Source: Planctomycetota bacterium
Lineage (GTDB): Bacteria > Planctomycetota > Phycisphaerae > Tepidisphaerales > Tepidisphaeraceae
Direction: 5' to 3'
DNA length: 54,401 nucleotides
Assembly (NCBI GenBank): GCA_039182125.1
Contig: JBCDCH010000025.1
Span: 1 to 54,401 of the forward strand
The position numbers were made by a program, and so were the translations under genes. Each line of letters begins with the position of its first letter. Position 1 is the first letter of the stretch. Of this stretch, positions 1,545-43,909 are shown one piece after another. The notes under the pieces are model-generated. The model was given only the letters and a program-made list of their open reading frames with translations, did not search any database and was not told the origin of the DNA.

Positions 1545-3617
1545 TCAATCGCCTCGCCCCAGGGGAACCGGCGGCATCGTGACGATCTTCGCGGCATGCC
1601 AGCGGGCGATGAACGCTTCGACCTCGTCGGGATTGTCGGCATACGGGTCGTACGGCGGCTCGCTGTCGATCGGCGGTCGTGGGCCGAACGCTTCGTTTTC
1701 GTCGAGCCAATCCCTGATCCGGATCGCGGCCTGCTGCTCGGGTGTCGGACCGCCGGGCCAAACCACACTCGCCCCGCTGAGCAGCTTCCAACACGTCTTT
1801 CGCACATCCACGTCCAGCCCGGCGAGGAACTCCGCCACGAACATCGTCGCGAGCATCCGCTCCGAGCTTTCGTCGATACCCTCGACCATCCGCGGCAACC
1901 CATCCATCGCTTCTTCCAAGCCCTTGAGCATGCCGAAGCCGTTCTGTAGCCGCTTGATCTGACGGGGGTTGGTGAACGCGAACTGCTCGACGCACTGGCG
2001 AAACGCACGGCGTTCATCCGCCGTGAACTGCATCGCTTGGTCGATGTCTTCATCGGTAACCGGCGGCGGACGAAGCTCCGGCGCTGGAGCCGAAGGCGTG
2101 TCATCGTTGTCAATCGAGGTGGCAACCTTGCCACCGTTGATGTCGGTACTCGGTACCGGCGGCGATGGTCGATCGGTAAGCGCTTCGACTGCGCCGACCA
2201 CACTTTCCTCGTCTTCTGCTTCCTGCTTCTCGCGTTCGATCGCATCCTTGAAGAGATGCGTTTCGACGTAGTTCCGCACCACCGCCGGCTCGGGCGGTGG
2301 GAGTTGCACGACGGTGTGGAGCACCTTGGCCAGGTAATCCCGGGCCACCCGCGGCCTGTCCTCGGCGGCGACCGTATCGCGGTAGTGGTGCATCACCGCC
2401 TGCAACGCGATGTCCGAGTCGACGAGCACCACCACCGTCACTCCCGGCACCTCCGCCACGAGCCGCACCGCGTCGAGCGTCTCCACCACCGACTCCGCGT
2501 TACAACGGTCGACGTCGTCGACGAACAGAACCAGTTGCCGCTTTGCGTTGAGCGATGGATCGACCACGTCACGGGCCGTGATCGTGTCGAGCCATCGGCG
2601 AAAGCGGCCACGCTTGTCCGTGTTCTCGCCCGACTGCTCTCCCGGCAACAGGCGTAACTTGGCCATCACTTCGAGGTTGCGGCGAATGGCCGGAAGCTCG
2701 CCGAGATGGTCCGCGTAGTCCGGCAACTGCATGTACCGGTGCAGGTCCGGCGACAGCGGGTGCTTCGCAAGGCTCGTCAGTTGAGCGAATTCCTTCAGTC
2801 CTTTGACCGCTGCGGCGAGCAGGCCCAAGACAGCGATGGTAAGCGGTAGTCCGGTCAACATGCTCAGATTCGGAATCGTGGCGATGACATCGTCGCCAAA
2901 GACGGCCACCATCCCAAAAGCCGTCAGGATCAGCACGACAAGCAAGGCGACCCAACCAAGCCTTAGTAAGAACGGCACAGGGTGTGCGTGCCATGCGAAC
3001 GTCCAGCGCAAACGCAGTTTCGCGAAGAACCCGAGCGGTGCCACCAATCCCTGCACGACTTCCTGCGCCAAGCCCGCAGCGAGGTTGTCGGTTTTCTCGT
3101 AACGCCAGGCGTTGAACTCGGCGAAGCAGAAACGTTTGCCGTGGGTCTTGGTGAGACGATCGCGGAGTTGGAGCATGACGCTGCTCTTGCCAGTGCCCCA
3201 GTCACCGAGCAGGCCGAGGGTGGTGTGGGCGGGAAACTTCTCGCCGGCGAACATCCGCGCGAGCATGAGCACGAACGGCTTCCGGTCGAGATAGTCGTCC
3301 GCCGACGGCTTCTCCGCCGCGATCACCGTCGTGTTGCCGTTGTCCCGCTTGCTCGCCGACCTGGACGCCGCTTCGTCGGTGGATTCGTCCTCAACGAGCG
3401 GCTCGCCGCGGGCCGCAAGCCAGTCGTTGAGTCGATGCAGCATCGCCGGATAACCGAGGCCGGCTTTCGACGTCGAGAGGTACGCATCGAGCAGATCGGT
3501 CCGCTCCACCGACTCGAACGCCTTGCGAATCGTGGGCAGGCGTTCCTTGATAAGTTCCGGCAAACCAGCTTTCCAGAGCGGGCGTTGATAGAACTCATCC
3601 AGCACCTCGGCCGCCAC
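1545..3617 (-). CDS. KAP-family P-loop NTPase
   Basis: Predicted membrane-associated NTPase of 690 residues. Walker A is GDWGTGKS near residues 138-145 and Walker B is LVLFVDDVDRC. Between them lie two strongly hydrophobic segments (near FLLRLGWVALLVVLILTAF and LTIAVLGLLAAAV), the usual KAP arrangement in which membrane helices are inserted in the NTPase domain. The first 80 residues form a separate helical domain that I could not name. The start is GTG at 3617; no good ribosome site precedes it. The upstream frameshifted gene ends 23 bases away, and one 7-bp repeat unit separates the two frames. KAP proteins are often found in defence or accessory loci, but the role here is not shown. Confidence 0.85.
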   Translation of the reverse strand: MAAEVLDEFYQRPLWKAGLPELIKERLPTIRKAFESVERTDLLDAYLSTSKAGLGYPAMLHRLNDWLAARGEPLVEDESTDEAASRSASKRDNGNTTVIAAEKPSADDYLDRKPFVLMLARMFAGEKFPAHTTLGLLGDWGTGKSSVMLQLRDRLTKTHGKRFCFAEFNAWRYEKTDNLAAGLAQEVVQGLVAPLGFFAKLRLRWTFAWHAHPVPFLLRLGWVALLVVLILTAFGMVAVFGDDVIATIPNLSMLTGLPLTIAVLGLLAAAVKGLKEFAQLTSLAKHPLSPDLHRYMQLPDYADHLGELPAIRRNLEVMAKLRLLPGEQSGENTDKRGRFRRWLDTITARDVVDPSLNAKRQLVLFVDDVDRCNAESVVETLDAVRLVAEVPGVTVVVLVDSDIALQAVMHHYRDTVAAEDRPRVARDYLAKVLHTVVQLPPPEPAVVRNYVETHLFKDAIEREKQEAEDEESVVGAVEALTDRPSPPVPSTDINGGKVATSIDNDDTPSAPAPELRPPPVTDEDIDQAMQFTADERRAFRQCVEQFAFTNPRQIKRLQNGFGMLKGLEEAMDGLPRMVEGIDESSERMLATMFVAEFLAGLDVDVRKTCWKLLSGASVVWPGGPTPEQQAAIRIRDWLDENEAFGPRPPIDSEPPYDPYADNPDEVEAFIARWHAAKIVTMPPVPLGRGD

Positions 3618-3621
3618 TTCG

Positions 3622-3657
3622 TCACCAACTTCACCAACTTTAGACTTTAGACTTTAG
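3622..3657. repeat. Short tandem repeats at the junction of the KAP gene and its upstream partner
   Basis: Plus strand: two perfect copies of TCACCAACT (3622-3639), then three perfect copies of ACTTTAG (3637-3657). The 7-bp unit is not a multiple of three, so gain or loss of a unit shifts the frame. With two units instead of three, the upstream frame would read straight into the KAP frame (FLKSKVGEVGDEVAAEVLDE). Confidence 0.9.
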
Positions 3658-4193
3658 AAATTCAAAATCGTTGGCGGCAGCGTAGGTAGGAGCGGCGGTG
3701 GCGGTGGCGGTTACGTCGGGAGGTAGCTCGCCGGGAATGATAACGACCGGGTGTACGTTAAAGATTGAGTGAGCCTCGGCAACAGCCTTATCGGCGATAT
3801 CGGCGGAGTTGACACTAGCGGCTGCTGATGCGACATCAGCGGCCGCATCAGCGACAGATTTGGCGATGGCCGCGGCTAACCCAGCGAGGCTGACACTGGA
3901 AGAGATGGAGCGCGCCGCAGCGCGGGCGGCTCCTTCAGCAGCGCCGGTAGCCTTTACGACGGCGCTCCAAACCATCGAATCAGTCGGTCGACGACAGAAT
4001 ACAGCACCCGCCACGACTGCAGCGTCAATGTTCGACAGAGTTGAGCCTCCATTTTCCCCCAGAAATCGAAGTCGCCGCCGTAACCTACAACCGGAAACAC
4101 GCGCATCGCACAACGGACGGCATATGCGACGATCGCCTGCTTCGGCAGCTCGGCAAGTTCCCCTCGTGTTGGTAGCTTTGCCTGCTCGGCCAC
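3640..4193 (-). pseudogene. Frameshifted gene with LPTRxELAxLP domain, upstream of KAP NTPase
   Basis: Reading from a GTG at 4193 (AAGGGGA about 9 bases upstream) gives AEQAKLPTRGELAELPKQ followed by AIVAYAVRCAMRVFPVV. I recall this domain start from small conserved bacterial proteins; it is normally followed by a long Ala-rich helix. In this frame the sense is lost after FWGKMEAQ and a stop comes at 3954. The expected Ala-rich helix (AAEGAARAAARS, SVADAAADVASAAASV) continues in the -1 frame from about 4040 to a TAA at 3640-3642. The switch falls just after a GGGGGAAAA run (4052-4060). It may be a broken gene, a base-call error, or a slippage site. Function unknown; the pairing with a KAP NTPase suggests one system. 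Confidence 0.65.
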
Positions 4194-43875: not shown

Positions 43876-43909
43876 TAGGCGCTAGGGGCTAGGGGTTAGG
43901 CGCTAGGGC
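43876..43909. repeat. Inverted-repeat arm on the cysNC side of the four-helix-bundle gene
   Basis: 34 bases made of three related TAGG-rich units (TAGGCGCTAGGGG, CTAGGGGT, TAGGCGCTAGGGC). The part TTAGGCGCTAGGGC matches the inverse of 44309-44335. The two arms would pair in RNA with the small gene in the loop. Confidence 0.85.

Follow-up and report, generated by a model that had tools for sequence, protein, structure and literature searches.

The QatA protein of the anti-phage system qatABCD is described as a predicted KAP NTPase (PMC13279940). KAP-family P-loop NTPases are represented by Pfam entry PF07693. As for genes with interrupted reading frames, a survey of frame transitions (PMC3711429) expects that isolated BLAST-supported cases (singletons) reflect errors in sequencing and not true indels. 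Here we describe a locus that touches on both subjects, in a window of 54,401 nucleotides (the whole stretch of DNA analysed) from a Planctomycetota bacterium. The minus strand from 4193 to 1545 carries one gene of about 880 residues, made up of an N-terminal helical module, an Ala-rich middle and a KAP-family P-loop NTPase, the module start and the NTPase being read in frame 0 and the middle between them in frame -1. The gene belongs to a known NTPase family, its frame is broken, and it was probably inactivated recently by two frame breaks. For annotation, this means that the three hypothetical ORFs at the locus are best read as fragments of one broken gene. Its features are as follows:

4056-4193, minus strand: module start in frame 0, from GTG 4193, matched by a profile of seven one-frame relatives.
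3960-4089, minus strand: interval with the first frame break (0 to -1), delimited by switch scans, with GGGGGAAAA at 4052-4060 inside it.
3643-4056, minus strand: Ala-rich middle, open in the -1 frame, placed by the absence of stops and by composite score; its upper end depends on the position of the first break.
3637-3658, minus strand: 7-bp tandem repeat of 3.1 copies, seat of the second break (-1 to 0), placed by stop positions.
1545-3617, minus strand: KAP-family P-loop NTPase ORF of 690 codons from GTG 3617, scoring 111.3 bits against KAP_NTPase.

From GTG 4193, which is preceded by AAGGGG, frame 0 reads VAEQAKLPTRGELAELPKQAIVAYAVRCAMRVFPVVGYGGDFDFWG and then runs to a stop at 3956-3954, giving 79 residues. 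The Ala-rich stretch in the -1 frame ends at a stop at 3642-3640, while frame 0 reopens at about 3653 and continues to 1545 as an open frame of 702 codons, in which the 690-codon NTPase frame is undamaged. A sequence-only reading of the same DNA had placed LPTRGELAELPKQAIVAYAVRCAMRVFPVVGYGGDFDFWG in one minus-strand frame and the Ala-rich stretch in the -1 frame, and had counted two frame breaks in 600 bases; all of this holds. That reading spoke of an "LPTRxELAxLP gene"; the frame switch is real, and the stretch is the start of a larger gene running into the KAP NTPase, to which it had not been connected. No second copy of the gene was found in the bacterium's own genome, an assembly in 131 contigs.

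The score of the NTPase against PF07693 lies well above the curated cut-off of 20 bits. The strings GDWGTGKSS and LVLFVDDVDRC, which we take to be the P-loop and Walker B motifs, can be read from the ORF and align with those of its relatives; the product is predicted to be a KAP-family P-loop NTPase. Unlike the family as defined in Pfam, the gene adds an N-terminal module that has no Pfam name, and it is frame-broken. The resemblance to QatA consists in a partial match across the NTPase part; the score of 91.7 bits lies far under the NCBIfam equivalog cut-off of 600, so a role of the protein in defence is a guess, and the N-terminal module sets the two proteins further apart. On the plus strand, a tRNA-Pro gene (1470-1543) comes to within 2 bases of the NTPase gene's 3' end.

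To collect relatives, genome contigs were scanned with an alignment of the window composite and one related protein (L011), which gave 48 loci; BLASTP of pieces of the window against L011 alone returned nothing meaningful. Frames were read in the best nine of the 48 (L015-L023, E 1e-50 or better), with L011 and L019, which are the same protein, counted once, and with L020, truncated at its start by a contig end, set aside. Module and NTPase lie in one open frame in seven of these nine (L015, L016, L018, L019, L021, L022 and L023), which belong to Balneolaceae, Gammaproteobacteria and Phycisphaerae; on its 3' side, L016 runs into the end of its contig. All seven have R-C-A-x-R-V or a variant of it in the N-terminal module, a helical or Ala-rich middle and then the KAP NTPase, and most have a module end of the type DFxxL ... 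F(Y/F)xxPLW. Homologs lacking the second half would have refuted the sequence-only reading; the opposite was found, since these relatives possess it and continue into the KAP NTPase. In L017 a complete Ala-rich module stands in the frame of the NTPase, and between the two lie an in-frame TAG (3029-3031) and directly after it an ATG, which reflects either a nonsense mutation or the division of the gene in two. The module is not universal among KAP proteins, as that of genome G110 has a different N-terminus.

Within the family of the bacterium only its own genome matched (1 of 26; none of the 25 others), and in its class, where L011 was also found, the module start occurs in 6 of 298 genomes and the NTPase in 4, the own genome included in both counts. 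Across the phylum the module profile matches 15 of 392 genomes, again with its own, and the full-length profile at E 1e-60 matches that genome alone (1/392). At the same threshold, 4 of 92 genomes matched in the family to which the genome of L015 belongs, among them those of L015, L018 and L023. Plasmids searched with the module start gave no match, and none of 135 pattern hits on viral contigs was confirmed. Inspection by eye of the surroundings of L015, L018, L019, L022 and L023 revealed no apparent common neighbour, except that those of L018 and L023 are similar. In another genome (G135), one contig ends in a module start (L005) and another in a KAP NTPase (L012), perhaps parts of a single gene that the assembly divided.

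Across the middle of the window gene the -1 frame has no stops, frame 0 has four and the +1 frame ten. The profile of the seven one-frame relatives matches frame 0 of the window in the NTPase and at the module start (19.0 bits, i-Evalue 6.3e-8 among 3 targets), and nowhere in the stretch that separates them; the -1 frame has no significant match to this profile. Against a profile of 11 related modules, a composite read in frames 0/-1/0 scores 72.6 bits, compared with 53.7 and 48.7 when the middle is taken from the other two frames and 49.0 when it is omitted. Shuffled middles (n = 500) averaged 50.4 bits and reached 70.7 at best, so that none of the 500 attained 72.6. Scored by itself, the -1 middle has -2.3 bits, and its support is therefore its fit between the two flanking anchors.

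The first break can be placed less exactly. The GGGGGAAAA run is present at 4052-4060 as the sequence-only reading had reported, and occurs once in the window against 0.31 expected; the proposal that the switch lies near 4030-4062, at the run, fared less well. The 11-sequence profile favours a switch at about 3990, which scores 80.9 bits where one at the run scores 72.6, and the scores from a 29-sequence profile hardly vary between 4089 and 3960 (74.3-79.5 bits, 77.1 for the run). Of 30 subsampled profiles, 18 have their optimum below 4050, 11 inside the run and one above it. When the genome was searched with a wider profile, the match to frame 0 extended past the run as far as 4023, and codon usage slightly favours frame 0 in the windows starting at 4050 and 4020. 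Homology narrows the first break to about 4089-3960 only and does not single out the run. The window holds 79 homopolymer runs of at least 5 bases, one per about 690 bases, and by our own arithmetic a 130-base interval has a chance of about 17% of containing one. As site or cause of the first break, the run is unproven.

These data also bear on a programmed -1 ribosomal frameshift at GGGGGAAAA, an exceedingly unlikely origin of the first break. The direction of the shift is right, the run does lie inside the interval, and the 11 subsampled profiles mentioned above put the switch there. Against this, the profiles do not fix the switch at the run, frame 0 holds no X_XXY_YYZ heptamer within 4193-3955, and the RNA 3' of the run is no more stable than its mononucleotide shuffles (-23.1 kcal/mol, shuffle mean -23.9); the gene would moreover need another shift in the opposite direction. 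Programmed slippage was rejected, the heptamer and the RNA structure being absent and the frame change not conserved (7 of 9 relatives in one frame). With it falls one of three options left by the sequence-only reading, a disabled gene, a sequencing error or a -1 slippage site, among which the disabled gene is best supported.

The second break is confined to the 7-bp repeat because stops leave no other place for it: those in frames 0 and -1 restrict the switch to about 3655-3643, inside 3637-3658. The repeat is perfect, and its length is not a multiple of 3. It is one of three adjoining tandem arrays at 3622-3711 (9-bp in 2.1 copies, 7-bp in 3.1 and 6-bp in 3.0), and the unit lengths of the other two are multiples of 3. 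Elsewhere in the window (43876-43908) there is another 7-bp tandem array, TAGGGGC, in 4.7 copies with 80% match. A unit of this length sitting exactly at a frame break is what would be expected if changes in copy number toggled the gene on and off by phase variation, which we consider very unlikely: the array has only 3.1 copies, a change in the repeat alone leaves the first break in place, and a search of the genome for other such 7-bp arrays found the copy at this locus only. An extended form, in which 7-bp copy number together with slippage at the first break would reversibly switch a KAP NTPase, perhaps a defence protein, has an equally slight chance of being correct.

In the -1 frame, an ATG at 3975 precedes the frame-0 stop by 19 bases, and GTG 3617, which follows GGTGA, starts 22 bases beyond the stop at the second break. 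Such an arrangement might indicate a gene split into coupled, still translated cistrons for module start, Ala-rich middle and NTPase, and the TAG that abuts an ATG in L017 points the same way; this is nonetheless distinctly improbable, in that the first boundary would cut through the module, a unit that the seven one-frame relatives keep intact.

Frames were also scanned by codon usage in 18 stretches of 20 kb and in the window, which yielded 228 same-strand frame changes among 1067 segments. Among those listed, 27 fall in the window, including the second break and not the first, and the second break resembles ordinary neighbouring genes. Because the scan does not tell broken genes from neighbouring ones, we claim no base rate of frame breaks from it.

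Taken together, the two breaks, the one-frame relatives and the lack of a slippage signal make a recently broken gene the best reading. Ribosomes starting at 4193 would stop after 79 residues and would make no full protein, and the NTPase alone would need an internal start such as GTG 3617. The second break would most simply have originated by replication slippage that expanded the 7-bp repeat, and the first by an ordinary small indel, the remainder of the gene having not yet decayed. The frames, the family match and the one-frame relatives are observed directly, and we infer the biological nature of the breaks, their order and the loss of function. In favour of a broken gene stand the seven relatives (of the best nine of 48 loci) with module and NTPase in a single frame, the match of their profile on either side of the middle, the composite scores, the confinement of the second break to a perfect repeat and the lack of a further copy found in the own genome. 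On the other side, L017 shows that a stop can separate module and NTPase, and the intact NTPase frame is also compatible with a sequencing error or with continued use of this part.

Since the 690-codon NTPase is undamaged, either the break is recent or the sequence contains an error. That one or both breaks are errors of sequencing or assembly, and the gene really intact, is rather unlikely; the division of the assembly into 131 contigs fits it, as does the expectation for isolated frame transitions cited above, which bears more on the first break than on the perfect 7-bp repeat. A repeat of this kind is not a homopolymer miscall, and a random base-call error would rarely create one. The window gene resembles the singletons surveyed in PMC3711429 in having a homology-supported frame transition that is absent from the relatives read, and differs in having two opposite breaks, one of them inside a short tandem repeat.

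The analysis yielded, as a by-product, a module without a Pfam name. No Pfam family matched above its cut-off in the members scanned; DUF416 and Imm5_like each appeared in one of nine modules (best E 6e-4 and 0.0022, respectively), with bit scores, where shown, below the cut-offs. Imm5_like had no match in the own genome and matched 6 of 14 control genomes, none above cut-off. Searches with the predicted fold of the L015 module (mean pLDDT 68.1, pTM 0.74) reached neither E 0.001 in Foldseek nor Z 5 in VIA-align, and PDB sequence matches to the module began at E 0.22; this lack of structural matches does not establish that the predicted fold is new. The DUF416 structure 2q9r aligned to it with Z 3.7 and an rmsd of 4.3 over 105 residues, tied with unrelated rows, and the resemblances to DUF416 and Imm5_like are leads only. 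The module occurs alone, in tandem (L004) and in several fusions: with KAP NTPases, in L083 with a dsRNA-binding motif (E 5.2e-16) and in L099 with TPR-like repeats that score under the Pfam cut-off. Besides L083, L004 and L099, a further locus, L097, carries the module in one of these other contexts.
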